DNA from: Sinohyriopsis cumingii | Lineage: Eukaryota > Mollusca > Bivalvia > Unionida > Unionidae | Direction: 5' to 3' | DNA length: 64,000 nt | Assembly (NCBI GenBank): GCA_028554795.2 | Contig: CM068824.1 | Coordinates: forward strand, 163,488,130 to 163,552,129 | Part shown: positions 13,386 through 54,624 of the stretch, in pieces | Layout: each line of letters starts with the position of its first letter | Position numbering within the stretch: position 1 is the stretch's first letter | The notes under the pieces: generated by a model | What the model was told of the DNA's origin: nothing | Databases searched by the model: none | What the model saw: only the letters and a program-made list of their open reading frames with translations | Program-made: the position numbers and the translations under genes

Positions 13386-13654
13386 AAAGAGTATTCTGCG
13401 TGCTACAAATATTACATGCTAAAGGATTGTAATTAAAGTTATAATACAAGTGAAAGAAAATTAATTTCCCGCTGAAAGTTAGATACCGAGTAATGTACGT
13501 TCGGTTGTCTCGAAGCTTTCCTACACATTTCACTTGTGCTCATCGAATTTTAATAAGGACATTTGCAGGAACTCCAAACGGAAAAAAGTGTCGTCACCAT
13601 CACGCATCTTTTCACTCTTACACGTCCTGGAACTTGAATTGGTTTAGCCTTCAT

Positions 13655-14495
13655 TTCATTGCGGGAAAACCAGTCGGCCATGGTTTCACACTAGCTTTCA
13701 TTTCATTGTGGGGAAAACCAGTCGGCCATGGCTTCACACTAGCCTTCATTTCATCGTGGGAAAACCAGTCGGCCATGGCTTCACACTAGCCTTCATTTCA
13801 TTGTTGGGAAAACCAGTTGGCCATGGCTTCGCACTAGCCTTCATTTCATCTTTGGAAAACCAGTCGGATATGGCTTCACACTAGCCTTCGTTTCATCGTG
13901 GGAAAACCAGTCGGCCATACTTCATACCAGCCTTCATTTCATTGTGGGAAAGCCAGTCGGATATGGCTTCACACTAGCCTTCATTTCATCGCGGGAAAAC
14001 CATTCGCCATGGTTTCATACTAGCCTTCATTTAATTGTGGGGAAAACCAGTCGCCCATGGCTTCACACTAGCCCCCATTTCATTGTGGAAAAAAACCAGT
14101 TGGCCATGGCTTCACACTCGCATTCATTTCATCGTGGGAAAACCAGTCTGCCATGGCTTCACACTAGACGACATTTCATTGTGGGGAAAACCAGCTGGCA
14201 ATGGCTTCACACTAGCCTTCATTCCATTGTGGTGAAAACCAGTCGGCCATGGTTTCACACTAGCCATTTTTTCATCGTGGAAAAACCAGTCGGCCATGGC
14301 TTCACACTAGCCTTTATTCCATTGGGGGGAAAACCAGTCGGCCATGGTTTCACACTAGCCTTTATTTCATCTTTGGAAAACCAGTCGGCCATGGCTTCAC
14401 ACTAGCCTTCATTTCATTTGGGAGAAACACAGTCGGCCATGGCTTCACACTAGCTTTCGTTTCATCGTGGGAAAACCAGTCGGCCATAGATATTC
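13655..14495. repeat. 46-48 bp minisatellite, about 18 copies
   Basis: The unit is cttcatttcatcgtgggaaa, accagtcggccatggcttca, cactagc. Length varies by one or two bases in the G and A runs. Most copies carry the ggccatgg word, and a few read atatgg or aatgg. Where copies are 48 bp the + strand stays open and reads GKPVGHGFTLAFIS repeatedly. I treat this as a by-product of the unit length. Confidence 0.9.
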
Positions 14496-24350: not shown

Positions 24351-24395
24351 GTATCGTTGGAAAATATTTGACATAGTTCAAAGAATCGTTTTGTT

Positions 24396-25005
24396 ATGAA
24401 CAGCTGGAGGTCTGTATCACCAATTAAAAAAATTGAAGAAGCAACAGATATGTCGGATACGTCTACCCCCAGGCTAAATGACACCCCCAGGATTAATGTT
24501 ACAGAGGCATCAGATACTAACGCTGGGTCAACAACGAGCGAACCTTTTTGGAAGCATATCTCCCGCACATCTCCGGTTGTTCCCGAAGACGTTCCAGAAG
24601 AAGACGTAATCCATCTTCAAGATTCGAGACCTCGGTCTTCTTCTAGCAAAAGTAATCGTTCCCCAAAGATGTCAGGATCTGCAAAACAAGGCAGACGGGA
24701 TAACAAGTCTACTAACCTCTCGGTACCCTTTCCTGGGGGAAAGGAGAAAACACAGAAGGAGATTACAGAAGAGATGAGAGTAAGTACTCCCATTCAGAGG
24801 GAATCAACAAACGCATCGCTGGACACCGAATCATGGATGTCAGTAGATGGCAGGATTCATCCGACTATGGTCCAGATAGCTGCTGACGAAAAACCCCAAA
24901 CGGTTCTGTCTCCAGGCCAAACTTGGATCGGAGCTGCCATTCCGTATCTTCCACTGGGACTAGCCATTTTGTGTCTTATTATGAATATCTTCATACCAGG
25001 TTCTG
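24396..25005 (+). CDS. stum: SPEC3/Stum-family membrane protein, coding exon 1
   Basis: Encodes residues 1-203 and the first base of codon 204. Residues 1-170 are polar and probably disordered, rich in Ser, Thr, Pro, Asp, Glu and Lys. Residues 176-203 read TWIGAAIPYLPLGLAILCLI, then MNIFIPGSG, the conserved first membrane segment and IPG-x-GT turn of the SPEC3/Stum family. Known relatives are Drosophila Stum, needed for mechanical sensing in proprioceptive neurons, sea urchin SPEC3, and vertebrate STUM (about 140 residues, so this protein has a much longer N-terminus). The exon closes at G, then gtacgt. Unspliced, the frame would run on to 25163 with no family resemblance. The next exon is 21.5 kb away and restores the conserved TVLSGFSILCCG. 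The start is the first ATG after the acceptor at 24350. Confidence 0.9.
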
Positions 25006-25194
25006 GTACGTACAGCGTATTTCTGTCTGTCTTTCTTTCTTTCGCTCTCGAGTGTGCTGCCTTGTATCTTATTATAAGCGTCTTTATTTTGAGCTGTGGT
25101 ACACACGGAATACCCCTCTCCGTCGTGTTTCTTTTCTGTTTATTACCGTCGTGTGTCTTGTAATGGATATTTTCATACCGTGTTCTCGTACGCA

Positions 25195-25238
<44 letters not shown>

Positions 25239-25240
25239 AT
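24966..25240 (+). repeat. Decayed triplication of the exon 1 end and splice donor, ending in (CT)n
   Basis: Three consecutive blocks of about 90 bp share a common order: (g)tgtcttattatgaatatctt, cataccaggttctg, gtacgtac, then a pyrimidine tract. Block 1 is the real exon end and donor at 25005. In block 2 (from about 25056) the corresponding words are tgtatcttattataagcgtc and gagctgtg, then gtacacac at 25099. In block 3 (from about 25152) they are gtcttgtaatggatattttc, ataccgtgttctc, then gtacgcac at 25188, and it runs into a (CT)n tract at 25198-25232. Blocks 2 and 3 are intronic and diverged to roughly 60-65 percent by eye. Confidence 0.6.
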
Positions 25241-26113
25241 AACATAAAATGCCTCAAGTGAAAAAAGGTTGAGCGTTTACTAAACTTACTAGTGTCTCGA
25301 GAAGCTAAGATTTATCACAGTTACTTGTGTATAGGGCGACTGAAAATGCATTATATGCCTTGAATGGCGCAACTGTCCATCGCAGATTAACACGAGCGGA
25401 TGGATTGAACAACGATAGTTAAGCCGTGTTTACTGCCTCGCAGAAGGGTACAGCAACAACAGACCACTCGGAAAAACAGATTGCTTCGCCTACTTATAGT
25501 AACTTGGTTTATTTGGGGTTTTTTATTTTTCGCTTTCAAAAAATCTCTTAGCGATTGAAACAAGAAGTATGGGCATATTCCCAAAGAAGTATGACTATTT
25601 TATAATAACTATACGCATTTAGTTGTATACGTAATATATAGTATATTCTATTTTATCCACTCGTCCTGGCATGCTCTAGCCCGGATACCCGATTATGCAA
25701 GAGCAAACACATATCTGGCCATTGAACTGGTCAGGGGTCAACTGGAATCTTTGTTATGCAATAGTTGATTGACAGACGCCACCAGACCCGGTCCTAAGGC
25801 AAGGCGAACGAGGCAACCACCTTGGGCCCCGCGCTTTCAGGAAATCAACTCCGTAATGCGAGTGTTGTGCTTGGGGCCCCGCTCATCGCGTTTGCTGTCT
25901 TAGACCCCGCACATCCTAGGGGCTAGTCTGGATGCCACCCGTTGTGAAAGGTCAGTTGCCCTGGCTGCTTGCTTTTATTTAGTCCGAGTTTCATTTGACT
26001 CTTGCCACCCCATTTTGATATTTGGACGATTATGTTGGGGTGTAGGGTCGGAGTCCATTGCCTATCGAAAAGTTGGAAATCGCGGACGAATCGATCGATG
26101 TAACTCATGCCTG

Positions 26114-26371
26114 GCGGGTCCCCGAGTGGCCGAGTGGTCTAAAGCGCTCTACATTACGGATCACTACCATCTCACCTCTGTCTGCGTGGGTTCGAGTCTA
26201 GGATTCGGCCAATGTGGGTATGTGAGAAAGCTTGCCAGTAGCTTCTCGTGGGTCGGTGGTTTTCTCGGGTTCTCGGGTTCTTCCTCCACCATAATTACTG
26301 GCCGCAGTGAATAGCCTATCGAGTGCTGAAAAATGGCGTTAAACCCCACAACAACAACAACAACAACAACA
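26114..26371 (+). mobile_element. tRNA-derived SINE, family A, copy 1 (full length)
   Basis: The head, gggtccccgagtggccgagt then ggtctaaagcgct, is a box A of the tRNA-Ser/Leu type. It is followed by box B, gtgggttcgagtct, at about 26189. The body contains aaagcttgccagtagcttct and the end is tgctgaaaaatggcgttaaa, then ccc and a (CAA)n tail to 26371. Two further copies with the same body and tail lie at 35134 and 45508. The SINE is in the sense direction of the host gene. Confidence 0.9.
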
Positions 26372-28043
26372 CCATGCCTGGCTCAGCCTGTTTTTAAAAA
26401 CATATTTTGATACGGACACTTGAACGCTACATAGGTACGGAACACCGTCATGGGAAGTTTCATCCCTTGTTATATCCTGTGACAGCACACAGTGCGTCCC
26501 TGTCCTCCACACTACAACCAATCCGTCATGTTTATTGCCCATATCTATGTATTAGGACACAGAGACACGACTCATTTTCACTCTTCTGACGATTATATGA
26601 AGAAAAAAAAAAAAAAACGCTTCGTAGTCATTTGGTAGCGTCAGTCTCAAAATTGTCATTCACAGACTGAAAAGTTTATCGAAATGTGTCGAATACAGTC
26701 ACACAGAGTCATGTAATGTGTTTTTTTCTTTCTTTCTGACAGAACTACTGAATCAGTCAGGCTCCTTGAATGGAACAATATATGCCCAATATCCTTTTTA
26801 ACATAAACCTATTTTTGAAGGTTTATTTTAATACTCTTTTCCGATTGCTGTTCAAATTAGTCCTGCTTATTGGACAGCATTATTGTTTGGTTGGAAGGGT
26901 TCATCCATACTTTGTCATTAATATACATTGCATCATTTGCACGATGGGTTCTAGCAAATCGACCAATATTTGGACGATATCCATATGAATATATGAACTT
27001 ATTTAATTAAAGTGAAACATCTTAAAGACTTATTAAATATGCATTCAAATATTTAAGAGAAAATATTCTTTTGTTGATTCGTTTCTTACAACTAGGACAG
27101 AGAAGGTATGACAACTGTGATTAAAAACGTGTAATTCCGAACGAAATAAAAGCAGAAATGATAGAGACTTTATAAAATTCCAAAAAGACAAATTTTTAAT
27201 GCGACTTAAATACCCTTTCTATTACAAGTAATAACGTGACATGTTTACTTTTAACCGAGAAAGGCGTGTCGTTACTCGTAAACAATGCTACTTTTTCATT
27301 TTGTATTCAATAATTTCATGATTATATGATCTACATGAATTTATTTCCTGATAATTGTCCTCGTGATTATATAAGCAGTCTTGCTATATTTGGAGTTAAA
27401 AATTTAAATTCCTTTACAAACTTTCTTTTGGTCGATCCTAATAAACATACTTAGTTCAGCTCATCCTTGAAACGACTAAACCTTTTTTGAAATACTTTTG
27501 AAGGATACCAGATATATTATCCTTTGAACAAGTACCATTTAGCTAACTCTAACAAGGTAAATTCACCGTAAATTGGTTTGGTTGAGTTAATTTTCGTTGA
27601 TTGAATTTAAATTCGCCAAAGCCAATTCATCGACAATAACTGTTTTTCTTTAAAGTGACAATTATTTCTGGCATTAAAAATACAATCTGCACATATTTAA
27701 CTATTATTCATTTCCTGAGATTTTACATCTGTTTAACAAATTTACTATTACTTATTATTTTTGAAGAAGTTTTTCTGGAAGACGTTATAAGCTTTTTGTC
27801 TCAAACTTGCATTCAGTTTGATGTATAATTTTCACTTAGGATATTGTTTAAACAAGTTAACTCTTTGCATTAGAATTTGGTAGTGAACGAGACATTTCCC
27901 TTGGTTTTTCAATGTAATAACAGGTTTGGAAGTATTAGATTTGTACCCTCGCAACCATTTATCAGCTTGCAGACCCATATATACAGGCGACTTTATTACT
28001 CCTATCATTTCGTTTTAATCTGATGCTTTTATTGTCCGTATCT

Positions 28044-28618
28044 AATGGGACTAAAGATCGGGAATATTACATGTGAGTAGTAATGAGACTAAAGATCGGG
28101 AATATTACATGTGAGTAGTAATGAGACTAAAGATCGGGAATATTACATGTGAGTAGTAATGAGACTAAAGATCGGGAATATTACATGTGAGTAGTAATGG
28201 GACTAAAGATCGGGAATATTACATGTGAGTAGTAATGAGACTAAAGATCGGGAATATTACATGTGAGTAGTAATGGGACTAAAGATCGGGAATATTACAT
28301 GTGAGTAGTAATGAGACTAAAGATCGGGAATATTACATGTGAGTAGTAATGAGACTAAAGATCGGGAATATTACATGTGAGTAGTAATGGGACTAAAGAT
28401 CGGGAATATTACATGTGAGTAGTAATGAGACTAAAGATCGGGAATATTACATGTGAGTAGTAATGAGACTAAAGATCGGGAATATTACATGTGAGTAGTA
28501 ATGAGACTAAAGATCGGGAATATTACATGTGAGTAGTAATGAGACTAAAGATCGGGAATATTACATGTGAGTAGTAATGAGACTAAAGATCGGGAATATT
28601 ACATGTGAGTAGTAATGG
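28044..28618. repeat. 38-bp minisatellite, 15 near-identical copies
   Basis: The unit gactaaagatcgggaatatt, acatgtgagtagtaatg(a/g) is 38 bp and repeats 15 times with essentially one variable base (atgaga/atggga). Such uniformity points to recent expansion or ongoing homogenisation. Confidence 0.95.
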
Positions 28619-30283
28619 CTCAAACCACGAAACGCTTTATTGCAGTGTGCTTAGTGGCATGACAATTACGAATGCAGTCTAGTTGTACATATTAATCTGC
28701 TTGCTCCATTATTTACATTTGGTAAAAAATATAAAATTAGTGTCCTGCATATTAATGTCTAGGGCAGCTAAAATGAATATTTAGTCCAAGTAATTTTAGT
28801 ATTTTTTTGTTTCAAAAATTTATAAGTGGTTCTGATTTTCAATGAAAAACACCAGACATCGGGGTATTTTTGTTTTTAAAATATCTGATTCGTTCTGCAT
28901 GTCAGTGTTAAAGAAACTCAGGACATGGAGCTTTTTTCTCTAAGTAGATCGTCTAGATAATTTTCCCATAGGGATACGATATTTTAAATTTTAAAAAATG
29001 ACTGTCTGTCTTAACCGAATTGAACCCGTTTAATCTGGTTGTATGGTCCATCGCTTGAAACTGGTTCTATTGTCCAGCAATCGTCATTTGGTCGTTTAGA
29101 AATCTGCAAAAGGATATCTTACATACATATTTTTAGGTACTATCGTATTTATACAATGATATATATAACAAAATAGATATCTTGATTGCTGCATGAGATA
29201 GCTTATGTATTAAAAATACGTCTTCTTTGTTGAAAGAGTTGTAATATATACACTTAGACAAGACAGCTTAGTCAATGTATAAGATATTTTAAACATTAAA
29301 GACGTCTTCACTGCACTGAAGATATCTAATATACTTTACAATATAAAAATTGTTTGAGTATTTCTTAATTCATATTTGAAATATTTCTCCAGTAGGAATG
29401 TAGGACATTATATATTGATAGGTGCTGTTTTAATCACTATATTGCTGCATTAATTTGCGTCATCTGTCTTTTTATCAGAAGTGCATATTAACGCAGGCAA
29501 ACATCAGTGACCTAATTAAACAAACTTCATAATAGCCATATAAAAACCACATTACCTCTTGGATATTTGGAATTAATATAACGTTGATAGTTTTACTGTT
29601 TATGTCAATTCAGAGACTAATGGACTTTGTCATTAAATTATGCTGTAACTACGAAAATAAAGAATTCTATGCATTTTATATTTTATTGATATTACTTGTT
29701 TTTCTTCTCACTTTTATGATGACAACGCGCGTTTTTGAAAGCATTTAATGACGAGCTTTTACTCCAGTGCTATCAGACATCTATGTGCAGATCAGTGATA
29801 TAGGAATCAATGAATTAAAATACAATCAAAAGTACCCACTCCTATATCGACTATTTTATGGGAAAGTTTTTTGAAAAGATACTTAACTGAATTACCGTGG
29901 GGAATTAGCACTACCAGAGTGCAGTATGGTGTATTCTACTTCATCCACGGTGCAGAGATGGGTGTTCATATAAATGTCATTAGGCGTAGGAATGAATACT
30001 TTATTTTCATATATAAGGTGCATATAATCTCACGCGATCTTACTGATAAGTAGAGTAGTCACGTTATTGTATAATGCAAAAGCCATGGCAGCGCAAAAAG
30101 CGCAAAATGGACAAACTTAATAATAATGGTGCTTACTTCTGGTTTTCTTTTCTTTTGTGTATGTGACGTGGTGGTTATGGCCGGGGAGAGAGTACAGAAC
30201 GATGAATTCAATACTATTTCTTATCAGTTGTAATGAATTATGCAACAAATCAGTAGAATACTAACGGTGGGAGGCGGGAGGGG

Positions 30284-30640
30284 GAATAAATAAGGTGTTA
30301 CTTTGTATCCAGGTGCACCAAATGTAATACGGATACTCCGAACACGCTGGAAACGACATATTTTAAGAAATTCCTATGGTTGCCTACAACGGACTTCACC
30401 GAGCTCGTATTGTACAGGCTAAGGTCACTTCTGAGTCAAAAAGGCTATATCAACACTGTCACTGATCTCCCAATCTGCAAAAAAATGTGCTCTGTTGACG
30501 AAGCTGCGGAGTTCAGACGGTTGCCTCGTTCGCCAGAGGTATTGGAGCAACTAAACCAAGGGCTCCATCGGTCTTGGGCGTCAAAACCAGTTTGGGCCAT
30601 ATACCCATTGTACGCCACTGAATAAAGACAAAGACGGTAA
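30284..30640 (+). repeat. Dispersed repeat shared with 33728 and 38090 (copy A, partial)
   Basis: From 30284 to about 30535 it is nearly the same as 33728-34115: caggtgcaccaaatgtaat, acgctggaaacgacatattt, gacttcaccgagctcgtatt, gtacaggctaaggtcact and atgt(g/a)ctctgttgacgaagc. Beyond that the copies diverge. Coding-like frames here are short and broken. The family is probably the end region of the Penelope-like element described at 35560. Confidence 0.6.
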
Positions 30641-30786
30641 ATATGTTCGTTTGTGCTTGACATATACAAAGAAGTTGTCGATATTGTAGCCGGTGTTATC
30701 CGTCTTGGAGGATGAATCTAAAGTGAAACCTATCCTTGAGGTTTTGTCGAAGTTCTATGGATGTAGTTCATAACACTATCGAATTA

Positions 30787-30788
<2 letters not shown>

Positions 30789-30858
<70 letters not shown>
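30789..30858. repeat. (GA)n microsatellite
   Basis: About 35 uninterrupted ga dinucleotides. Confidence 0.95.
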
Positions 30859-30860
<2 letters not shown>

Positions 30861-32229
30861 TGGGGGAATATTATATGGTCAATATACTTTCCACACATTT
30901 TTGTGTGGTTTTATTTATTATTATTATGACCAAATATAAGGAACATATGATCAGATGAGGACCTCTATATCTGGCTGATATGGGACATATATAACAAATT
31001 ATTTTCATGAGATTTAGAGAGGTGGTTTCATTGTCTAACAGACCAGACATCTTTTTATTGATATTATAATTGAGCCACACGAACGTATAGACTGATTGTG
31101 TAACAAGGTAGGAGATTTCGGTTGTTTCATTGAGATCATATCTTTATTTACATTATCGCCAGTGATGTTTTCTAGTAAGATGTACAAGAGAACCATCTTA
31201 CAGCCTAACAAAGAGGGATATAGTTAATGCATTCATTTATAACCGAAAGGCTGATTGTGAGCAATAGTTTTAAACATCTCGTACAATCCATGCGCAGAAG
31301 CAAAATTGTTCCAAACCGTAAAAGTTACCAGGTACCAAGTCTGATGTAAATTTTCAACCATTATTTCCATTTGAGAAGTGTGTCAGAAAACTTATTTTAA
31401 ATCATTGTTAAGTATGAAATTGCTTCATCTGTATTTATTCTTGATATTTCAAACTGCAGTGAAAATAAACAAAAATTCGGACATATCCTAGACAGAACAT
31501 TCTGTTTGACTGGAGTTTTCCTGTATCAACTCAGTGCATGTATGGCTCGAGTTTAGAGTGTCCAGAAACCAACTTTTGCTCTCATCACACTGATGGAATT
31601 TCTTGATACAAAACGGAAAAAAAACCAACACACATAATTCTTGCAAGAAGGGCAAAATACTTCGCACAGCTGAAGATTGCCTGTTTAGTTATGTTTCCGA
31701 ACTCGTTGTTATCAACCTCAGTCATCGTATGTTGGAACAACTGTCTTAGATGAATGATATATTTACATGCTTTTACCATATTATGCAAACAAAATCTAGG
31801 ATATATTTTTGGAAAAGCAAATTGTAGTCACTTTTTTGTGATTAACCTCTGTGACCTTGACACCCTCAGTGGAGTTTACTATTATAATATGATGAATGTT
31901 CAAGCTCTACAATATACATATAGAATAAAGGTCACTGCCTGCTTTGTATGAAAACGTACAAACTGGGCACACTTTTAAATATGCCTGAATTGAAAACACA
32001 CTAGTTAATCCATAGTGAACTAAGTGGCATTTTATTACCTTGACACCGCTAGCAAGGTGGGAACGATAAAATATTTATGTACTCTTGGGTGTTAATTTAG
32101 GATTGTGGTCACTCTTTATCTTCTGTGTACGGAAAAGTTGTGTATAGAATCAATATTCGTGTGTGTTGAGATTACTTATATTAAATTTGACCAATACTAT
32201 ATTCATTGACTTTACTGTGACTGTCACGT

Positions 32230-32870
32230 GTCCCCTACGGAATTATTACTATCCCCGAAGAAGGACGGACAATTAAAAGGTTAAATATCTCCGAGCCCCC
32301 AGTCAGCAAAGCCGATGCTCTGTGGTGTATAAAATAAAAAATAATAAGGTGAAAGGTATAACAATTTAATAAACTATATCACGGTATTCAACAATTACAG
32401 GACAATTATTTCAATGCAATTGCTCCCAACCAATACAAGACCTATCCAAACTGCCAATTATTTCAACACGCGAAATTAAAGGTAAGAGTGTTTCCTTCCC
32501 ATCTGTGTTACTCATCTGTGACTTCCGCCTTTAATTCCTTGTCAGTACTTCCGGTACGCTTGTTTCCGTTTCCCGGCCTCCTTGTCGGTACTTCAGGTAC
32601 CATTTATTCCGTTATCCCGGCCTCCTTGTTGGTACTTCCGGCCCTGCGCCTTTGCTCAACTTCTTAATTCCACTTGCTCTCCTCGTCTCCTTCTCTCTAC
32701 TCTTCGGGTGGCGTCCTATTCCAAATCTCGTCCAAAGTTCCTAGAACTACCTTCCCGCCCTTTTAACGAGTGCACATCTTCGGCACTAGGAGCGCAGTCT
32801 AGCCTCCCCAACTTCCTTATGATCTGCTTTCGCCAATGTCCAGACATGCACTGATCAGTTCACAATGAAT
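32230..32870 (-). mobile_element. LTR-like fossil, inverted copy
   Basis: On the minus strand a purine-rich, then AT-rich block ends ttgctgactgggggctcgg (32309-32291). It continues into about 60 bases matching the sequence after the same edge at 17149-17215. The region is more GC-rich than its neighbours and includes repeated ggccgggaa and ggtac words. It is interpreted as an LTR-type fragment of the same old family as 16660-17215. No coding part is seen. Confidence 0.35.
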
Positions 32871-33727
32871 GTAGCAGAATAATGACTAGCTGTGTGAGAA
32901 ACCCGCCCCAAAATTTGACTATCTTAGTTGAGATTGGATACCGGTGGTCTCTTTGAAACTGTCTGGGGTTGTATCACTGATGAGTTATAATATCGGGTTT
33001 CCGGTTTCTAAGACTAAGAAGACCGATGACATCACTGCTGATTGCAAAACAAACATAGTTTCTCACCCCGCGGCAAGGTTCTTCAAAGGAAGTTACCGCG
33101 AATTCGACCGTAACGCAATGACTAATTTCACGGACAGGTTGTTTCTTTGTTTTAAAATCGGTCTAAGGCCGTAATATTATTTAACACATATTGACATTAC
33201 CCAACGTTCTTTGAACTACGAATTCTATCAGAAGGCATTAATAAACATGAAGCAGGAATTGTTAGCAAATTTTCTCACACAACGTGACAGTGACCTTAGT
33301 TTCCTCTCATAAGCTTACCACGAACATAAAATCAATATATTCTCTTTAGACAATGACTTTGGGATGTTGGTCACCTGGTCACATTAGGTTAATCAAGGAG
33401 GTAGCCATATCAATTTAATTCATATAAATAGTTTAGTCGGAAAGCAGCCAAAAGGAAGTACTGACAAGCAAATATGAAAAAGAGGCAGCCATCGCTTATA
33501 ATCTAGTATTTATTCATATCTAACATTCATCAAGAATTAACTGTACATATAATTTAAAAGAAATCTATCGAATTCACTTGCCTGACAGATGGTTGATTTT
33601 TGTTCCATAGATTGTTCTTAGCTTGAGTCACTATGTTTCGGAACAGAGTTGTTTGCATTTGAAGGAGAGTTTTCTGTTTATAGGCCTACATACATGATGA
33701 CAGGACATGTATATTAGAAAAGAGGTT

Positions 33728-34411
33728 AGAGAATAAATAAAGTGTTACGTTGCATACAGGTGCACCAAATGTAATGCGGATACTGCGAACACGCTGGAAA
33801 CGACATATTTTAAGAAATTGCGATTGTTGCCTACAACGGACTTCACCGAGCTCGTATTGTACAGGCTAAGGTCACTTCACCGAGCTCGTATTGTACAGAC
33901 TTCACCGAGCTCGTATTGTACAGGCTAAGGTCACTTCACCGAGCTCGTATTGTACAGGCTAAGGTCACTTCACCGAGCTCGTATTGTACAGGCTAAGGTC
34001 ACTTCTGAGTCAAAAAGGTTAGGCGTGCTTTAGCAACACTGTCGCTGAGTTCCCAATCTGCAAAAAAAATGTACTCTGTTGACGAAGCTGTGTTGTTCAG
34101 ACAACGAATAAATATCTGGCAAAGCGTGGCCGACAGTTATAATTCTGCCAGACATTATGTTGATTCTTTTGAGATACTGACAATCGAGTTCAACCCAGGG
34201 TGGAACAAATCAGAGAACAGCCGAAACGAAAAATATAGGATCCTGTGTTCAGAACACATGGGGAATTCGATCTTAACGACAAAAAATTCAGTTTCCCCAT
34301 TGCAGCCGCTCTGTTGTCTCTGTACTCACATAGAGACACAATATTACACTCTTTCTATGATAATTTGGTCTCTAATCCTACCAGTGAAAAACCCAGAATC
34401 TACTTCTTTTA

Positions 34412-34444
<33 letters not shown>

Positions 34445-34755
34445 GTGTCCCATTTATCTTCTATGAAAATTAAGGATTAGCATATCGAGCAGAAAGTGTG
34501 TCATAAAATATTTGACCCAGTTTACAGTTATCAGTAGTCAGAAAACTGGGATTCTTGTACAGGGATCACAAGGAGACTTGCCATTCACCCAGCGCGCTAA
34601 ACCTTTATTTTTCTAGGCAATGAACTTAGTCCTTGCTACTCGCGTATGCTTTAATTGTTTTTGTTTTGGTTACCTTTGAACATTTTGGTATATGTTATTG
34701 TTTTTTATTAATCTATCTCTCAAGGAGACGTAGTTTCCTTTTCCGTAGATTTCGT

Positions 34756-34792
<37 letters not shown>

Positions 34793-34900
34793 CGTCAGGT
34801 GGTTTTGAATCGTAATGTAAATACTTTTCCTTCTCATCGCCTGCATGTTAAATGTTAGTTTCTTTTCTTTTTTGTCCGTTTATTAGGATGATATTGCCTA
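33728..34900 (+). mobile_element. Dispersed repeat copy B with internal tandem expansion
   Basis: Shares its first 390 bp with copy A, and scattered blocks along its length with copy C (38090-39030), such as ctcacatag, gacacaatattacactctttc, tatgataatttggtctc, tgctactcgcgtatgctt and aatgtaaatac. At 33838-34010 a segment around ttcaccgagctcgtattgta then caggctaaggtcac is repeated four to five times. A (ATT)n tract lies at 34411-34443 and a (CT)n tract at 34759-34788. Short coding-like frames such as GEFDLNDKKFSFPIAAALLS and LYSHRDTILHSFYDNLVSN are visible but broken. It may be the 3' region of an upstream Penelope-like copy. Confidence 0.5.
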
Positions 34901-35133
34901 GCTCGACACGGTGGACTTCAGTTAGTACCGTTGCTAATCTTAGTATCAATATACATTATTTGTGTGTTGCTGGTTTGTATTACATGACCGCTTTAACACG
35001 AACTGCGGAGTAATTTTGCGTCTTTCAAATGTTAGATTGGTTGTGTTGATGTCATTTTCATTTACAAAACTCAGTGACACAGCCTGTATTTTATAGGGAA
35101 TGGTTTACCTTCATTGATAATCAGAACTCTTAT

Positions 35134-35322
35134 ACTCTGTCTGCGTGGGTTTGAATCTAGGATTCGGCTAATGTGGGTATGTGAGAAAGCTTGCCAGTAG
35201 CTTCTCGTGGGTCAGTGGTTCTTCCTGGGGTTTTCCCGGGTTCTCCCTCCACAATTAATACTGGCCGCCATGGATAGCCTATCGTGTGCTGAAAAATGGC
35301 GTTAAACCCCACAACAACAACA
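35134..35322 (+). mobile_element. tRNA-derived SINE, family A, copy 2 (5' truncated)
   Basis: Begins inside the head at ctctgtctgcgtgggtttga (box B) and runs through aaagcttgccagtagcttct and gctgaaaaatggcgttaaac to a short (CAA)n tail. The front half of the tRNA-like head is missing. Confidence 0.9.
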
Positions 35323-35559
35323 TACTCAATTTGTTCAGTTTTTCTTTTTTGCATGGTCTCACCTTGTAAGAGTCTTCGATTTTCATATTTGTTTTGCTTA
35401 ATTTCATGTTTATTATTTTATTTTTGGTTGTATATTTGCTCGTGTATTCTCATCTCTTCTTTTCATATGGGCCATAAATCCCTCTTTCTCACGCGTAGAT
35501 CCGTTAAAAGAATACAAAAATTAGGCTGATACTCACTTGAACAACCAGATGCACTACCG

Positions 35560-36660
35560 AACTATTATTAGATCTTGTCTTTGTGTTTAAACGTCAATGT
35601 TTCATCCGTCTAAGTCGTTGGGTTAAACTTCTATGCCTGGAGAAATATCGAAATTCTTCCACAAGATGCAGAATTCTGCAAATTGCACCGTTAAACTTTT
35701 TTAATTCTTAAAATCTAAATCAGTTCATATAGTTAGGGTATTGGAATTAGGCTTTAAAGTCAAAACCAAACGTCTTGGTGAAAATTTTGATCTTTTCATT
35801 TTCACTAACTATATAGAAATATTTGGTGAATGCCGTCTAAAGAACTTCTAGAGAAATTTAATAATAAATTCTCCAGTGGAAAGAAAAAATCCTACTTCAG
35901 ATTATTCCATTTTACACTGATAAGACTAATTAATTGACTACAACATTCCATCAGAGATCATCCACCAGTGCTCGTAGACTATTATTATCGTAAATCTGTA
36001 ATCGTGAGACTTGTCAGACCCTAACGCAAGTCCCCTGTCAAACAGCCGCATGTCTTATCAAGGATCCAAACTCTTCAATGTGACTGAGTTGAAAGAAGAT
36101 TTTTAAAATTTCGCTTGCAGAATGAGACCAAAAGCGAAATTCAATGATCCAGCTCGTGAATCGAACACTGAACATGATAATCAACCTCAAAAGTTTATCT
36201 ACAAAAGTCAATTTGGTCCATCCTTTGCAACATTCATGTTCGGGAGGCTTTCTTGTCAGCAGTGACAAGTGATATCGACTGACACAAAGTCAATCTAATG
36301 AGGACAAAGTGACTCCTCAAGAAATAGTCGTTGAAAGTGTTGATATTTTCATCAAGCCAGTCAACAAGTGGACAAGTGGTGTGGTCATGAGTGCATCAAG
36401 TTACTTCGCTGAGGCTGATAGACAATTATCAGACGGTAAATTTTACATGAAATTTGATAACCACCCCAGCTCAGAACAGGCTATGTTAAAATTCACACAC
36501 TTAGAAATATGCATAATACAGAACACACAGATTACACTATATTGGCCAACCTTCTTCCAGTTGACCACATGCCAGATAAGTTTTATCTGCTTCTCAAAAT
36601 TTTCAAAGCGAGAAAGTAATCATATCCGGCATTAATCATCATGCAGGACAAAATCCAGAT
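35560..36660 (+). mobile_element. Penelope-like element, N-terminal and RT fragment
   Basis: The + strand frames carry a series typical of Penelope-like elements. A KFIYKSQFGPSF-like block lies near 36200. It is followed by VDIFIKPVNKWTSGVVMSAS and SYFAEADRQLSDGKFYMKFD at 36330-36465, matching the IKPADKG-xx-VVM and RQL-x-D-xx-FY blocks, then DKFYLLLKIFKA near 36570-36606, matching FYLLPKIHK. The rest of the RT palm is not recognised, and stops and frame changes separate the blocks, so the copy is dead. Upstream sequence from about 35560 is compatible with the N-terminal part but only weakly. Related blocks B and C lie on both sides, as expected for tandem Penelope copies or their terminal repeats. 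Confidence 0.65.
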
Positions 36661-36726
36661 TTAGTTACCATCATTATGAATCTTTCATAGAAAACATCTT
36701 TCCCACATCCAAGACACTACATAGAC

Positions 36727-37033
36727 TAAGCACGTAAGACCAATCTTCCTGAAAACATTATCTACATTACTAATATATTCACTTAAGACCAACCTTCCTG
36801 AAAACACTATCTACATTACTAATATATTCACTTAAGACCAATCTTCCTGAAAACACTATCTACATTACTAATATATTCACTTAAGACCAACCTTCCTGAA
36901 AAAACTATCTACATTACTAATATATTTACTTAAGACCAACCTTCCTGAAAACACTATCTACATTACTAATATATTCACTTGAGACCAACCTTCGTAGAAA
37001 CACTCTCTACATTACTAATATATTCACTTGAGT
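36727..37033. repeat. 49-bp tandem repeat, about 6 copies
   Basis: The unit is cttaagaccaaccttcctga, aaacactatctacattacta, atatattca (49 bp), with a few substitutions per copy. It directly follows the Penelope-like fragment. Confidence 0.9.
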
Positions 37034-38089
37034 TTTGTTTCACTTTGTGTTCACTTTTTGGCAGCACCATCCAGTACGAAAATTTTAACAATCAAAAAAA
37101 TGCATTTCAAACCACTCCTTTTAATGATTTGTTAATACTGCAATCAACATTGGCATGAGAAAAATCAGTCAATGATTTCACGAGCAGTGTTTACATTGAA
37201 TATACTCAACAACTTTCTGTGTCGTTCACAACGCAACGAGGGGGTGATTTCGTCATTCTACACTTGCGTATGACAAAAAATTGTCTAGCTACGCGCCTAG
37301 CATTCAGCACGAGGAAGATATTGAAGTTTGCATAGACGCATTGGATAATTGCCTCGACCCTTCCTATACAATTGACCATCTGTTAAACTTTAGCGTCATG
37401 TTTTGATGTGTGACAGCTTTGAACTAAACGAGCACTATTATCTTTACAAAATGAGGCAGCATTGATTACTGAATTGACACCGCCGTATAACATTATTTTC
37501 ATTGGGAGGCTAAAACAAAACACCTTAACCAGACATCCCATAGACCCCTCGAAAACGGGATATAACTTAAAACAATTTGTTTTTCCTTTTTTTAATAACA
37601 AAAATTGAAACTAACTTTCATCCTACTATTAAATGTATATCGTGATCATCTGTCAGTTCAAATATTTGCTTAGATACCCAGTCCACACTTTGTGACGGGA
37701 ACATAGCAACCAACCTCACTGCCACGGAATTGATTTTCAATTTACAACACTGCCATCAATATGTTCAACTGTCTTCTTGGATACCCAGTATACACTTCGT
37801 GACGGAAACGTGGCAACCAGCCTTAACTGCAAACGAACTGATTTTCATCGGTATCTGCTGCAAAGCTGTGGCCACCCCAAGCATATTTAATAAACATAAA
37901 AAATAAAAGATAAAAAATCTCCCAGACTCCGCGTTCGTATCAAGCGCATCTGTTCCGATCAAAGGGTTTAGAAAGAATGACGAAAACTCAAGTGGTATCT
38001 CAAAAAAGGGCTACAAGAGGAAAATATTGACAGAGCTGTCGCCAAAAAGCAGGATTCTCTACATAAGTACTTTTTTGAGGTACAGACTA

Positions 38090-39030
38090 GAACCACAAAC
38101 GGACGCACCCCTTTAAGCTTACGTACTCATCGAGGCCCCATAAAGGAACGTCCGAATGGCATATTTTAATAAATTCCAATGATTGCATACCATATACCTA
38201 AAAAATAAAATTCCGAGACAAACACGTCCTTACTACAAATATATGCCTGATAATAGAACGTTCCGGAGGTTAACGACATGAGTAAGAGTTAACATAAGAA
38301 AATAGTTTCGGAAAATAGCCGTGTTATCCTAAAATGCTACTTATCTCCTGACGTACAAATACTGAACTGACCAATATGCTGGCGAAACTGTGACTTTAGA
38401 AATCAGATGAAAAACGTGAATAACCACATTTGCAAAAGATTCGCGACTAAACTTGGAAACCATTACATTTCAGCCAGAAATTTTGTTGAGTCCCTTAAGA
38501 TGTTTTGAACCGAATCGACATGTGATTGGGAATATAATGGATTTTTTTTAGCTAAAAACACACGGTAAATTGACTTTAACAACAAAATCTAGCTTACCCA
38601 TTTGAGTCCCTTTATTCTCACATAGGCACAATATTACATTCATTCTACGATAATTTGATCTCCAAACCAACATCAGTAGTAAAAGAAAACGTGCAATTCT
38701 GTTAATAGACTCATTGCGGTATTGCCTTCTATCCAGAGCGACAGTCATTTGTTTTTCAGTGTGAAACCGAGTCAAGGGCTCTTGTCCATGCTACCCGCAT
38801 ATGCTTAAAAAAAAAAAAAGAAATCTATTTTGCCAAATGACGCAGTTTTGCCTTTTCAATAATTTTCTTCTCATTTTGTCATTCATTTTAATGGCAGCTT
38901 CATAATGTAAATACATTTCTCCCTCATTATTTTTGTGGTAGGTGTATATTTTGTCATTGTAATTGTCCTTTTTCTTGCCAGCTCTGACGAAGATTTTGTT
39001 TTGCGTGAAACGTTGGGTTTTATATGGAGT
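38090..39030 (+). mobile_element. Dispersed repeat copy C, likely end region of the Penelope-like element
   Basis: Diverged from copy B but sharing its order of blocks: catattttaataaattccaa then tgattgcatacc, then ctcacataggcacaatatta, ctacgataatttgatctcca, catgctacccgcatatgctt and cataatgtaaatacatttc. Near the end, ctgacga (38984) is followed 16 bases later by gaaacg (39007). This recalls the hammerhead-ribozyme core found in Penelope-like terminal repeats, but I see no good stem between the two words. Confidence 0.45.
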
Positions 39031-39289
39031 TCCTAGTAATATAGTCTTCGCAAACTGTCTCCACGCGTTACTCTTGCCTTGGGGTGATGCTGTCTTCTAC
39101 GCATGCGACAGTAATTTAAAAAAAGGTCAACCGATGATGGATAAACATGTGTTCTGTTCTGACAGATGACTACTAAAAAAGCGAGTGTTCTGAAGGATTT
39201 AATGCTATGGGTCAAATAATGGGATTTCATGTTCAATCCGCGTACAAAAGTCAGTCGAAATAAATTTATTAATTACTAGAGAGCGGCCG

Positions 39290-39560
39290 ATAGTCCGAAA
39301 GTATTTCTTAGGAAAGATCCATTATGAAATGTCGTCTATTTAAGTTGGTATCCGCTACCAGGAATGTCGGAGATCTGCTAGTTGGTCCAATTACTCCTTC
39401 AGGCCAACCCGGATCGACTGCCTCTGTGTGTCTTTAGGAAAAGCACTTAGCTTCATTTTCTCGGCATGGTATAGCAGGAACGTGTTAAGAGTGGCGCTGA
39501 AACCAGCCGACAAACCATCTATCGACATTATCAACTGGTTATCCGACAGTTATTTTTATC
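39290..39560 (+). mobile_element. Possible decayed tRNA-type SINE
   Basis: The word gtgtgtctttaggaaaagca then cttagcttcattttctcggc resembles the core of the SINE at 4685. It is preceded by text with a loose tRNA-like layout. Divergence is high and no tail is visible. Confidence 0.25.
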
Positions 39561-39666
39561 TCACGGTTAAAGTAAAAACGATTTCGATTGGATAAAAGAG
39601 GTATCTGTATTTGGGTTTAACAGCACGTCAGTACAATACTGGCTATAGAGCGCCAGTTAAAAGTTA

Positions 39667-39668
<2 letters not shown>

Positions 39669-39742
<74 letters not shown>
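39669..39742. repeat. (TA)n microsatellite
   Basis: About 36 ta dinucleotides with one interruption near the end. Confidence 0.95.
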
Positions 39743-39752
<10 letters not shown>

Positions 39753-40794
39753 TTCTTCTTCAAAACACGTAAGCTCGGTAAACGAGACACAGACCAACAT
39801 ACACAAATATTAAATACCTAATCACACACTCTGTGTGTGTGTAAAACTTTACAAAGAAAATGCGATTGGTACTATTTAAGCCAGCAGTTTCAAAGTCATG
39901 AATCATTTGTTGTAACATAACAATTAATTCACATAACACTGGCCTACTTTTGTGACTAGATTTACGAAATGTATTCCAAAGCCATTCCTTCATTATCAAT
40001 ATTTACTTAGTGGTTGATTAATTCTTTTATGCAAAACCTTTGCGACAAATGGTCGGATGAAGAGCAATATTCTTGGTTGGTTGGCTATGATATAAAATGA
40101 ATAATCCTTTTTTTAATTATAGTCATGCGCATGGTGGTCTTTAATGCATTCTACTAGTAATTCCATTCACGACTTTATTTGAGCCACATGTGACCGAATG
40201 CATCAGGGTAAATTGCAATTTTTTATTAAAAAATTTCTGCAATTAGCAGATACAGAGATTTTTAGGTAGAAAAGTTTATCTTCTTGAGTCGCTATGTACA
40301 TTTAATTTGTATTGTTTGTTAATTGTTTTTCCTCCAACATTATTTTATGTTTAATTGTCCAAAATCAAGTTCATGCTGAACCCGACTAAGGACACTGGTG
40401 TTGTTTTTATTTTGTATACAAAATAATAAAAAGTTAATATTTCCATAGGAGTGTGGGTTAAAAATTAGGTTCATTATCAGTAGGATTAAACCTATTTATT
40501 CGGGTCTTGGTCTCGGACATTAGTATTTCTCCAAATACCTAGCCTACCTGATGTTTATCACAACCGTATTACAATTTTAGCAACATATTTTATATTGCAA
40601 AAACTTGGAACGTTCTAGACTGGAAATTTCCATTAAATCATATTATTTCCAGAAAATGCTAATTGTGACGTAAGTCAGGTGGAGGGGCTTATAATCTTGT
40701 AAAGTGGAGAAATTAATCCTGCATTAACATCTAAAGCATAAATCAGGCTTATTGTTGTGCTCATTTAATTGGGGGTGGAATTTATATATTTAAA

Positions 40795-41216
40795 TAATTA
40801 TTCACTGAAAATACAAAGTGTTCTTAAATACTAATCTTGGACAGAAACATTAACTTGGAATTATAGTCAATTCAGGCAAGTGCATCTTGGATTACATTAT
40901 TATAGTTAATTAGAAAACTGTTAGTACATCAACACACTTAAGGCTATTAGCACATTAGTACATTCAAGACTAGAGACACATCAACGCCTTCAACGCTGGA
41001 TTTTATTTCGAATACCAATGGAATTTAATTAGAACTTTATTTATTAAGACTCGTGATAAAACTCTTTGCACTATTCGGGATTAAATTCTCAACACGGTAA
41101 GTTCTTTTAAAATTTTCACTTTATACTATAGTAAAATAATGTTTTTGTTGAATTTGACAAAACTTGTTATTTTTTTTCTCTTTTCTATGACTTTGTTTAA
41201 GACCATATAATCGTAA
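40795..41216 (+). repeat. Dispersed repeat, copy 2
   Basis: Shares its 3' ending (gacaaaacttgttatttttt, pyrimidine run, tttaagacc) with 15225-15612 and 60770-60957. It shares the acacatc, tattag and ttcaagact words of its middle part with 46035-46300. Confidence 0.45.
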
Positions 41217-41545
41217 TAGATTATGGGGGGGGGAATTCTGTATCTTTAAAATTTTTAATTTTATCTTTTAAAGGGCACTATATAGCCATTATTGTTCTGA
41301 CGCATTTTCAAATGAAGGTCTTTATTATGCATTAAAGAATTTTATATATATATATATATATAAAGATTATATGATCATGGTTGGGTATTTATCGATGTGT
41401 AAAGTTTACCTAATCACTCACAAAGTAAATAAAGTCCGAAGTCTGTACTGTTCTATTTCTTTGTTTGTGTTTTTTTTAAACACTATACTTTCGAAACCGC
41501 CCAAGAAGCAATGAACGTTTTAATCCGTATATAAATTTTCAAATT

Positions 41546-41690
41546 AATAAAGCCGTGGATCGTTCATATTTTATAATTAAGCCGTGGACCGTTCATATTT
41601 TATAATTAAGCCGTGGACCGTTCATATTTTATAATTAAGCCGTGGACCGTTCATTTTTTATAATTAAGCCGTTGACCGTTCATAATTAAC
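41546..41690. repeat. 29-bp tandem repeat, about 5 copies
   Basis: The unit ataattaagccgtggaccgt, tcatatttt repeats with few changes. Confidence 0.9.
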
Positions 41691-42812
41691 CCTACGCATT
41701 CTGGTCAGGTTATAACGGACAGGATTGACATAAGCGCTTAAGGATATTAGCTTTTGTGAAATAATGTTAACTGCTCAGCCAGAAATCGCGTGATGATTAC
41801 ATTATTATGTCATCAAGATGCCATCACTTGTGACATCAATTGTTATATTAACTCTGAAAGAAATTGGGCGTAAGACAACGCGATTACCACTTGTTCATTT
41901 TTTTAAATCATGCAAAATAAAATAAAAATGTGTGTTATTTTAATAATTGTAATGACTATACTGTAAAAGAAAATGATGAAGTAAACTGAAAGAATATAAA
42001 ACACGTTTGGAAGCCATTAACGTAGTTTGGCCTATTGTAAAAATGGTTTCCAGGCTTTCCACTTTGATCTTAATAGATGTGACACAGTCAAAAATTCAAT
42101 CCCAAGCACACACTTTGTTAATTTGTATTATTATTTACTTGGCTACTAATTTACAGACAGTAAGTTTCTATTTCGCTGTTGTATGTAATGACCCTTTCTT
42201 GAGAATCGAAATTTAACTCATTGTAGTGCAAGCATATAGATACAAATAATTTAAGTTTCCGTGCTTGTTTGTTTTTTTCGGGGGGGGGGGGCTGCTTCGG
42301 TCCTTCACTATGTACGAAAGAAGGCTGTGAGGGGAGGAATGTATTTCAGTAGGTAAATACCTTATGTCATTGTTGCATCTTTAATAATTCCCAATTACTG
42401 GAAAGCGGTGGAATTATGTATAAAAAATACGAAACAAGGAAAATAGGTTCTTGTCAAGTGAATGATTTGAAATAAAGCGTCCATATGTTGATATTTGCAC
42501 TTGTCTAAACAGCTTTCACTAAATTCATTTTTTGTCGCAAAACTGCTACAAGATGTTGAAGCAGTATCCATGATTGACTGGCGCCTAGCACTCAGAGTAA
42601 ACAATGTAGTAAACATCTGAAACCAAAATGTTTATGGATTGTTTTATTGGCATTTACGTCACTGCCATAAAAAAATTCGACACATTTTGATGTGTACTTA
42701 ACGTTTGTCCATAATATTTCCATTTTTTCTGAATTTCCTGAAGTCAAGTTATTTGCAGTATTTTTCTCTGAATGTGCTACACAGAACTTGCAAAAAACTT
42801 ATCTTAAAAGTT

Positions 42813-43710
42813 CACCCAGTCTGAATCTAGCTCCCTGACTGGCAACTATTAATGCACGTTAACCCAGTCTGAATCTCTCTCTCTCATTAACAAATAATAA
42901 TGCAGGTCAACCAAGTCTGAATCTAGCCACCTGACTGGCAACTAATAATGCAGGTCAACCCAGTCTGAATCTAGCCCCCTGACTGGCAACTAATAATGCA
43001 GGTCAACCCAGTCTGAATCTAGCCACCTGACTGGCAACTAACAATGCAGGTCAACCCAGTCTGAATCTAGCCCCCAGACTGGCAACTAATAATGCAGGTC
43101 AACCCAGTCTGAATCTAGCCCCCTGACTGGCAACTAATAATGCAGGTCAACCCAGTCTGAAACTAGCCCCCTGACTGGCAACTAATAATGCAGGTCAACC
43201 CAGTCTGAATCTAGCCCCCTGACTGGCAACTAATAATGCAGGTCAACCCAGTCTGAATCTAGCCACCTGACTGGCAACTAACAAATGCAGGTCAACCCAG
43301 TCTGAATCTAGCCCCCAGACTGGCAACTAATAATGCAGGTCAACCCAGTCTGAATCTAGCCCCCTGACTGGCAACTAATAATGCAGGTCAACCCAGTCTG
43401 AAACTAGCCCCCAGACTGGCAACTAATAATGCAGGTCAACCCAGTCTGAATCTAGCCCCCTGACTGGCAACTAATAATGCAGGTCAACCCAGTCTGAATC
43501 TAGCCCCCTGACTGGCAACTAATAATGCAGGTCAACCCAGTCTGAATCTAGCCCCTTGACTGGCAACTAATAATGCAGGTCAACCCAGTCTGAATCTAGC
43601 CTCCTGACTGGCAACTAATAATGCAGGTTAACCCAGTCTGAAACTAGCCCCCTGACTGGCAACTAATAACGCTTGCCAACTTCTCTGATCGGCAACTAAC
43701 AATGCTAGTC
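42813..43710. repeat. 48-bp minisatellite, about 18-19 copies
   Basis: The unit aggtcaacccagtctgaatc, tagccccctgactggcaact, aataatgc (48 bp) is highly regular. Recurrent variants (cccctg/cacctg/cccag, gaatc/gaaac) are shared by non-adjacent copies. Edge copies on both sides are more diverged. Confidence 0.95.
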
Positions 43711-44013
43711 AGTTTGGAAATAAATTACGTCGGCATTGTGAAGTACTGTCTTACTCCCTTACTGTCTTATCTCACGGATCTCAGCTCTTGGGGTTCATTA
43801 AGCAGCGTAACTAAATGTATAGTAGCGTATTCATTTATTCCGTTTTAAGCGCATTTTATTGCCATAAATGAATAGAAACGGTTTTGGGCTACCAGTTCTC
43901 ACAACTTAAAATAAGCCCTTCCCGTACAATCACAATGAAATTTACATGGATAGCGGCAGTACATTAATTTGATTTCGTACAATTATAAGGAAAGTACATG
44001 ATTCAGAAAAGAT

Positions 44014-44016
<3 letters not shown>

Positions 44017-44046
<30 letters not shown>
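44017..44046. repeat. (GA)n microsatellite
   Basis: Fifteen ga dinucleotides. Confidence 0.9.
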
Positions 44047-44048
<2 letters not shown>

Positions 44049-45005
44049 GTTTCATACAGTTATCAGTTAATCGCAAATTCATCATAGTGGTAGAAGCTGG
44101 GTATTAGTACATACACAAAAAATGAATTCAGTTCCTAAGAATGAAGAAAATCATGTTACAAATAAAAATTAAATTTAGCTGTAAGTAATTGAGTAGAGAA
44201 ATCAAATTGTGAATACTCCGTAATTACATAAAGCGTGTTTCGTGTCTTTAATATATGTTTAGAGCCAGTCAAATGAAGCATTATTAACGTTGGCTGTAAA
44301 GTCAGACGATCAGGATAAAAATTAGTAGTAGTCGCTGGTACATGGAGATGATTTAGATTCTGTACTTTTTTGAATATATTATTAGCAAGTAAATATGTAA
44401 TGGTATGCATTTTCTATACCACAAGCACTTATTGGACTTTCTCTCAAAATGATTAGAATAGAAATCATTATGTAAATCACTACACTAATTTCTAATTAGA
44501 GGATGCCGAATGGATAATTTCCTGTTTCCATGAAAAAAAATTGGGTCGGCACTTGTGTCATCTTTGTCTCTATTTTACTTCTGAAAATAGAATGGTTATT
44601 TTCACTTTTTAATGAATCTGGAAGTGAGGTCCAAACATGAACAGAATAGTGTAAGAACGAGTTTCGAGTCCTGCATTAATGCAAGTAGAGTTATTCCTAT
44701 TTCTAAGGTCATGCCCGTTTGTCGTACCAACCAGTCGTGGTAGCAGGTCAGCAAGATAAGATAGAGAGACTTCTGTATAAAAGTTTATGAAAGCAACATC
44801 GTTTATAGACCTTATCTCCAATGGTAGACCAACCACCCAGTTTCTTTATGAATCTTATGACACGAGTCAATTTTTGGCCCATTTACAATTCCCCTATGTA
44901 TGCTTAATTTGTATTATTTGTGTAACGTTGGTCACTGTTTTAGGGTAGAGGCCTACTTGACTATTCACATGATTTTTTCAGTAAGCAATATATTACACAG
45001 ATTAT

Positions 45006-45316
45006 AACCGCTCCGGTGGCCTAGTAGTAGTTAAAGCGTCAGCCTCGGATGCGGGAGATCGCGTGTTCGAACCCCAGCCAAGTCATACCAAAGACTTTAA
45101 GAAAGGCACTAACAGCTGCCTCGCTTGGCGCTCAGCATTAAGAGGTTAGTGCTAGGACTGGTCGGCCTGGTGTCAGGATAATGTGAATTGGTGGGACATC
45201 AGGCTACATGTCTGCGACATGATGCCCCAGTGCTAGACATCACTATAAACTGTCACACTGCTGACATCGTAGCAATATGACTGAAAAATTGTTAAAGCTA
45301 CATTAAAAATTTAAAT
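45006..45316 (+). mobile_element. tRNA-derived SINE, family B
   Basis: The head, ccgctccggtggcctagtag then tagttaaagcg, gives a box A-like segment. Box B is gtgttcgaacccc at about 45064. The body includes ctgcctcgcttggcgctcag then cattaagaggtt. It ends with tgactgaaaaattgttaaag and an AT-rich tail at 45316. This family is different from family A. The tail leads straight into simple repeats. Confidence 0.8.
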
Positions 45317-45507
<191 letters not shown>

Positions 45508-45752
45508 GCGGGGCCCCGTGGTCTAAAGCGCTCACCGTTCTGGATCACTGCCATCTCACCTCTGTCTGCGTGGGTTCGAGTCCAAGGCTCTGCTAGCGTG
45601 GTTACGTGGGAAAGCCTGCCAGTAGCTTCTTGTGGGTCGGTGGTTCTTCCCTGGGTTTTCCAGGGTTCTTCCTCCACCAGTTATACTGGCCGCCATTTAT
45701 AACCTATCTTGTGCTGAAAAATGGCGTTAAACCCTAGAACAACAACAACAAC
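45508..45752 (+). mobile_element. tRNA-derived SINE, family A, copy 3
   Basis: The head, gcggggccccgtggtctaaa, lacks a few bases of box A relative to copy 1. The body (gtgggttcgagtcc, aagcctgccagtagcttctt) and end (gctgaaaaatggcgttaaac, then (CAA)n) are as in the other copies. Confidence 0.9.
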
Positions 45753-46034
45753 ATATATACACACAGCTAATACTTATGTATGATTGTATATTATATATTA
45801 TGAAGGTAAACATGTTTACTCATGTTGAGTTCAAGGTCTAGTTTTCTTCAGAAACTATGAATGTTCTGGAAGTAATCTTGTTTATGAATTTTATGGGAAA
45901 ATTAACGTTTGACCTTCATCATGGTTCTATAATTACGTCTTATGTTAATTGATACAAATGTTGTTTTCTTCAGAATTATTCATTCCATAGCTTCACATCA
46001 GTGTTAGCGGAATCGAACTGTATTCAGTTGAGAG

Positions 46035-46300
46035 GATTCGATTTATTTATTTAAATTATTCATTAGAATTACTAAGTGCTCTTTGACTCTATGACTAAAT
46101 AACTATTTTTGGAAATTATTGTGAATTCATTCAAGAACATTTTGAATTATATCATGGTAACACATCGAGACTGTTAGCACATCAAACTATTCCAGACTAT
46201 TGACACATCAGCACATTCAGCATTGAAATTTATTCAGAACACCACTGGAATTCATTTTGGAGTACTCTATAGTGGTACATACGATTCCATCAAAGATATT
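46035..46300 (+). repeat. Dispersed repeat, copy 3 (partial)
   Basis: Shares words such as ttattgtgaattcattcaag, gactgttagcacatcaaact and cattcagcattgaaatttat with copies 1 and 2. It lacks the tttaagacc ending. It lies 170 bp before exon 2. Confidence 0.4.
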
Positions 46301-46466
46301 AGAACTAGTTGAAGTTCGATACACCAACACTTACACATATATACACACACACAAACACTAATATTTATTAGTAAATTTACGTTGCTCGTGGCAAATATAA
46401 TAGATTTATAACCACTCTTATATATTTTTATTTAACAAACTGATTGTTGCTTTATCATTTTTTTAG

Positions 46467-46658
46467 GAACAGTTCTTAGTGGGTTTTCAATACTTTGTTG
46501 TGGAAGATCTCGGGTCACGAATAAGAAGGACGATCATATAATAACAACCATTTGTGTGAACGTGTGGGTAGGAGCAGCCCAGCTATTCACCGTCACTTTC
46601 TTACTTGTTGGATGGTTCTGGAGCTTTGCTTGGGGAATAAAGATGGTTCTCATCTCAG
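46467..46658 (+). CDS. stum: SPEC3/Stum-family membrane protein, coding exon 2
   Basis: Encodes the end of codon 204 through residue 267 and the first base of codon 268 (192 nt, phase 1 on both sides). It reads TVLSGFSILCCGRSRVTNKK, then a DDHIITTICVNVWVGAAQLF segment and TVTFLLVGWFWSFAWGIKMV. These are the family's conserved LCCGR motif, the second hydrophobic segment (about 232-258) and the GWxWSxxWG signature. The acceptor is catttttttag and the donor is gtatac. Codon phase and the conserved IPG-x-GT turn split across exons 1 and 2 fix the splice sites. Relatives act at the membrane of ciliated or mechanosensory cells, but a role here is inferred from family membership only. Confidence 0.92.
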
Positions 46659-53609: not shown

Positions 53610-53610
53610 A

Positions 53611-54616: not shown

Positions 54617-54624
54617 ATCTGATT

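Follow-up and report, generated by a model that had tools for sequence, protein, structure and literature searches.

The DNA considered here, hereafter the window, is a stretch of 64,000 nt from Sinohyriopsis cumingii (assembly GCA_028554795.2, CM068824.1, positions 163,488,130-163,552,129 of the forward strand). It carries two coding exons of a Spec3/Stum-family gene on its plus strand, with a single long intron between them:

24396..25005, plus strand: coding exon 1 of the Spec3/Stum-family gene, running from the earliest in-frame ATG up to the genuine donor
25006..46466, plus strand: intron of 21,461 bases between the two exon ends, holding copies 2 and 3 of the repeat described below
46467..46658, plus strand: coding exon 2, the remainder of the Spec3 domain, delimited by profile match, acceptor and donor

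The start of exon 1 at 24396 is a putative one, the first in-frame ATG of an open frame that spans 24372-25163; the exon ends in phase 1 inside a PGSG motif, with 25005 as its last base. Taken alone, the end of exon 1 matches positions 1-24 of the Spec3 profile with 21.9 bits (E 0.00025), under the curated cut-off of 27, and the translated segment 46442-46720 matches positions 23-85 with 72.5 bits. Exon 2 is preceded by the acceptor tttttttag, completes the glycine codon that is split at 25005, and terminates at a donor-like cag/GTATAC. Joined, 24396-25005 and 46467-46658 match Spec3 (PF15795) over positions 1-85 of 85 with 108.6 bits against the cut-off of 27, the domain running continuously across the intron. 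The gene is thus a member of the Spec3/Stum family, as the earlier note on this DNA, which also ended exon 1 at 25005, had proposed. Because this phase-matched exon pair yields the profile from end to end, the GT at 25006 (ctg/GTACGT) is the genuine donor. A GT at 25000 (cag/GTTCTG), 6 bases before it and in the same phase, was considered in its place and rejected: splicing from this GT would take two residues out of the PGSG motif, and its donor score of -3.19 and Spec3 score of 97.2 bits are both below those of 25006. The Spec3 family, which we take to be the one known under the name Stum, is described in Pfam as 'Ectodermal ciliogenesis protein'; Stum has a mechanosensory role in the fly. 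No solved structure matched at E up to 1. With a 63-residue query from exon 2, tblastn confirmed 0/23 pattern matches in the viral_contigs collection and 0/150 in genome_contigs, these being viral and prokaryotic collections that are uninformative on animals.

Two segments near the start of the intron resemble the 45 bases that straddle the genuine donor, as direct repeats 93 and 182 bases downstream of them (the spacing from copy to copy being 93 and then 89):

24970..25014, plus strand: copy 1, comprising 36 exon bases, the donor ctg/GTACGT at 25006 and 9 intron bases
25063..25107, plus strand: copy 2 (probable), 29/45 identical to copy 1 (64%), with a GT at 25099 (gtg/GTACAC) that is in phase and a weak donor
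25152..25196, plus strand: copy 3, 37/45 identical to copy 1 (82%), with a GT at 25188 (ctc/GTACGC) that is out of phase and behind a stop
25197..25238, plus strand: (TC)21 microsatellite following copy 3, reported by TRF

TRF, run at minimum score, did not report the period of ~90 bases, only short-unit runs at 25020 and 25197. When copy 1 is passed ungapped along both strands of the whole window, the best place other than itself is copy 3 (37/45), followed by copy 2 (29/45); the third-ranked place, on the minus strand, reaches 26/45. None of 5000 dinucleotide shuffles of 25015-25196 attains 29 ungapped matches, the maximum being 28. Gapped local alignments of non-overlapping blocks were evaluated in four settings (two scorings, each with or without the pyrimidine tracts) against 2000 shuffles apiece. 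The score of copies 1 and 3 is reached by 0/2000 shuffles in every setting; that of copies 1 and 2 by 31, 9, 1 and 1; that of copies 2 and 3 by 44, 781, 431 and 1210, which is not significant in three of the four. Judged from the letters, copy 3 certainly belongs to the repeat and copy 2 probably does: a short tandem duplication across the exon/intron border is found for copies 1 and 3, and is probable for copy 2. The proposal that the exon edge, its donor and the pyrimidine tract occur in three tandem, diverged copies, alike beyond what T-rich sequence would give, is accordingly solid in respect of copy 3, whose score no shuffle reaches, and only probable in respect of copy 2 (0/5000 ungapped, 1 to 31/2000 gapped). 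The tracts are alike in composition: the segments after the three donors are 75, 73 and 92% pyrimidine, compared with an intron mean of 51% (45-base windows). The tract of copy 3 is the (TC)n microsatellite, and that of copy 2 is only loosely similar in sequence.

Across the 45 columns of the three copies, 24 are alike throughout; copy 2 is the lone differer in 13, copy 3 in 5 and copy 1 in 2, and all three differ in the remaining 1. These column classes make copy 1 the centre of the family, which fits a parent under selection and two copies that drift. The GT of copy 3 does not share the phase of the exon, since 182 is not divisible by 3, and an in-frame TAA at 25161-25163 lies before it; the stop at 25161 that the earlier note had regarded as blocking copy 3 is real, and is joined by the loss of phase. 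The coordinates given there for copy 2 are also right: its GT lies at 25099, 93 bases on, in the same phase and with no stop between.

The strength of the copy-2 site is another matter. With a general consensus matrix, which was not trained on this species, the donors of copies 1, 2 and 3 score 4.11, -2.01 and -0.67. The copy-2 donor, which lacks the G at +5, is thus ~6 bits under the genuine donor and not comparable with it in strength; 19.4% of the plus-strand GTs of the window score above it, and 1.0% above the genuine donor. The best other GT within 25007-25300, at 25052 with a score of 0.25, lies outside all three 45-base copies. A base rate for such sites was obtained from the 400 top-scoring GTs of the window, of which those near TRF arrays were dropped, leaving 301 sites in three phases, or 903 trials (the genuine donor possibly among them): in 116 of these (13%) a further GT scoring at least -2.01 follows in phase, stop-free and within 100 bases. 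RNA structure as a means of favouring one donor was also considered and rejected, the mean unpaired probabilities of donors 1, 2 and 3 in one fold of 24940-25260 (0.27, 0.23 and 0.46) singling out neither donor 1 nor donor 2. An imperfect inverted repeat of 16 bases (24939-24954 with 25096-25111; 81% complementary), through which exon 1 would pair with the donor of copy 2, may be due to chance.

Splicing from 25098 would add 31 residues and lengthen the protein from 267 to 298. The number of added residues is as the earlier note had it; the mostly hydrophobic character that it ascribed to them can largely be put down to the T-richness of the sequence. Shuffling the 96 bases 10000 times gives 2132 stop-free sequences (21%), of which 12.6% equal or exceed the real translation in hydrophobicity. 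The Kyte-Doolittle scan of the longer protein shows an added hydrophobic stretch at 205-247. Relative to copy 1, copy 2 differs at 3, 4 and 6 of the 12 bases at codon positions 1, 2 and 3, 36 bases being a small sample, and a third-position bias or constraint is not clear; the corresponding differences of copy 3 are 4, 0 and 3. The PGSG motif is lost in copy 2 (CLIMNIFIPGSG becoming YLIISVFILSCG). Lying inside the Spec3 domain, the 31 residues break its continuity: the domain score falls by 10.1 bits, from 108.6 to 98.5, and the profile is matched in two stretches, the best covering profile positions 8-85. With exon 2 attached, the codons of copy 2 reach 79.3 bits against Spec3, above 9 of 9 shuffled inserts (73.1-77.8). 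This supports copy 2 as a homologue of the exon end; used or unused, such a homologue would score like this. The reading of copy 2 as a coding extension under constraint finds no support in the donor score, the codon positions or the loss of PGSG. Neither AATAAA nor ATTAAA, as a signal for intronic polyadenylation after the stop, occurs on the plus strand of 25000-27000.

These facts can be accommodated in more than one way. One is that the GT of copy 2 is in working use as an alternative 5' splice site. It would insert 31 mostly hydrophobic residues after the first membrane segment and before GTVLSGF, amounting to a second version of the segment end, and might alter the topology of the Spec3 domain. 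Copy 2 has retained its GT, its phase and an open frame, the 298-residue protein gains its hydrophobic stretch relative to the one of 267, Spec3 can be aligned from within copy 2, and 9/9 shuffled inserts score below copy 2. Set against this are a weak site without G at +5, a third-position bias that is not clear, the loss of PGSG, the lowered domain score, and the frequency with which open frames and further donors arise by chance (2132/10000 and 116/903). We consider a working donor at 25099 very unlikely, and the suggestion of the earlier note that copy 2 may offer an alternative 5' splice site is in this respect not supported. At the other extreme, copy 2 might be a chance T-rich resemblance, only copies 1 and 3 being related through a duplication at 182 bases, with no triplication. 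The gapped comparisons lean that way, the copy 1-copy 2 score being reached by up to 31, and the copy 2-copy 3 score by up to 1210, of 2000 shuffles; the ungapped identity that no shuffle reaches, at the second-best place in the window, and the location of copy 2, roughly halfway from copy 1 to copy 3, argue otherwise, and make this reading improbable.

It has also to be asked whether the array might act without entering the mRNA, its decoy donors and pyrimidine tracts slowing or tuning the genuine donor. Such a role would suit the three donor-like motifs, behind each of which lies a segment richer in pyrimidines than the intron mean, and (UC)n runs are binding sites of splicing repressors. 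Yet TRF lists (TC)n or (GA)n runs at four further sites of the window, the donors of copies 2 and 3 have themselves drifted, and the fold of 24940-25260 is without a pattern suggesting control. A regulatory array is accordingly hardly to be expected here.

What is probable, and in our judgement clearly so, is that an old tandem triplication has been left as a decayed, probably inert fossil at the exon edge, in a 21.5 kb intron of a repeat-rich genome. A unit of ~90 bases would have been duplicated in tandem, by replication slippage or unequal crossing-over, carrying the exon/intron boundary of the Spec3/Stum gene into the first part of its own 21.5 kb intron. Copy 1, which keeps the only strong donor (25006), would be held by selection on the protein; copies 2 and 3, being intronic, would have drifted neutrally and presumably for a long time. 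Chance would then account for the open frame and the phase of copy 2, and its GT would be no more than a weak cryptic donor. The junction at 25098 is probably not used to any useful extent; low-level use is possible. Three observations count against a fossil. Copy 2 has kept GT, phase and open frame together despite differing at 16 of 45 positions. Its codons joined to exon 2 outscore 9/9 shuffled inserts, though any homologue of the exon end would. And copy 3, although out of phase, has been preserved better than copy 2, a pattern not predicted by simple drift after a single event; perhaps copy 2 is older, or a two-unit block was copied and then partly lost. A search after copy 3 for the lost part of such a block gave a best local score of 15, which 197/500 shuffles attain, their mean being 14.4.

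A short tandem duplication at this place is unsurprising, since the window is rich in tandem arrays (8436 bases masked) and the unmasked window contains 8 clusters, this one included, with short-range ungapped repeats of at least 29/45, of which 3 reach 37. The counts of short-range repeats are 153 and 9 of 16737 starts with arrays masked, and 1316 and 1039 of 12700 with satellite arrays included. The other two places outside TRF arrays with such repeats of at least 37/45 are 37636-37687 and 61708-61756.

Alternative 5' splice sites are a general class, which copy 2 resembles in presenting a second, same-phase GT downstream of a donor, and from which it differs in that the second site is weak and a candidate only. 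The closest published relatives concern the gain of introns. In the potato RdRp gene, as presented in excerpts of PMC4974935, an internal tandem duplication across an intron-exon boundary included the splice signals, and a new intron was gained via a cryptic donor. The likeness lies in the tandem copying within a gene of a segment over one exon/intron border, splice signals included; the difference is that a new intron arose there, whereas the copies here lie inside an existing intron and no new one is indicated. The Rogers model, as described in the same excerpts, has introns gained by duplication of an exon segment bearing AGGT. There too tandem duplication yields further donor-like sites, but it is exon sequence that is duplicated, to give a new donor and a new acceptor, whereas here the unit already contains the start of an intron. 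Internal gene duplications are common (Gao and Lynch 2009, as cited in the excerpts of PMC4974935). A search of the open-access literature in narrow terms, which is no proof of absence, turned up no account of a donor copied in tandem that acts as an alternative 5' splice site; excerpts of PMC7730772 contain nothing on duplicated donors, in PMC4994401 Spec3 occurs solely within a reference, and 'Stum' in PMC7431706 is the name of an author.

Were copy 2 spliced, it would exemplify clearly how duplication of an exon edge can supply an alternative donor and change a membrane protein. As a fossil, the locus illustrates how a short tandem duplication leaves remnants of splice sites in an intron. 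It also carries a caution: where sequence is rich in T, in-phase open extensions adjacent to a donor are a common occurrence.

Elsewhere in the window, the minus strand of 52755-56349 bears a series of long open frames, of which 53614-54342 matches Exo_endo_phos (PF03372) with 38.7 bits, an endonuclease of the kind found in non-LTR retroelements; four scanned pieces of the 52755-56349 region yielded no reverse transcriptase domain. Minisatellites with units of 37-50 bases lie at 4011-4551, 6554-7335, 13645-14487, 28043-28617, 42814-43669 and 58429-59665. Those at 28043-28617 and 42814-43669 are inside the 21.5 kb intron, and that at 58429-59665 consists of a 50-base unit in 24.7 copies at 99%.
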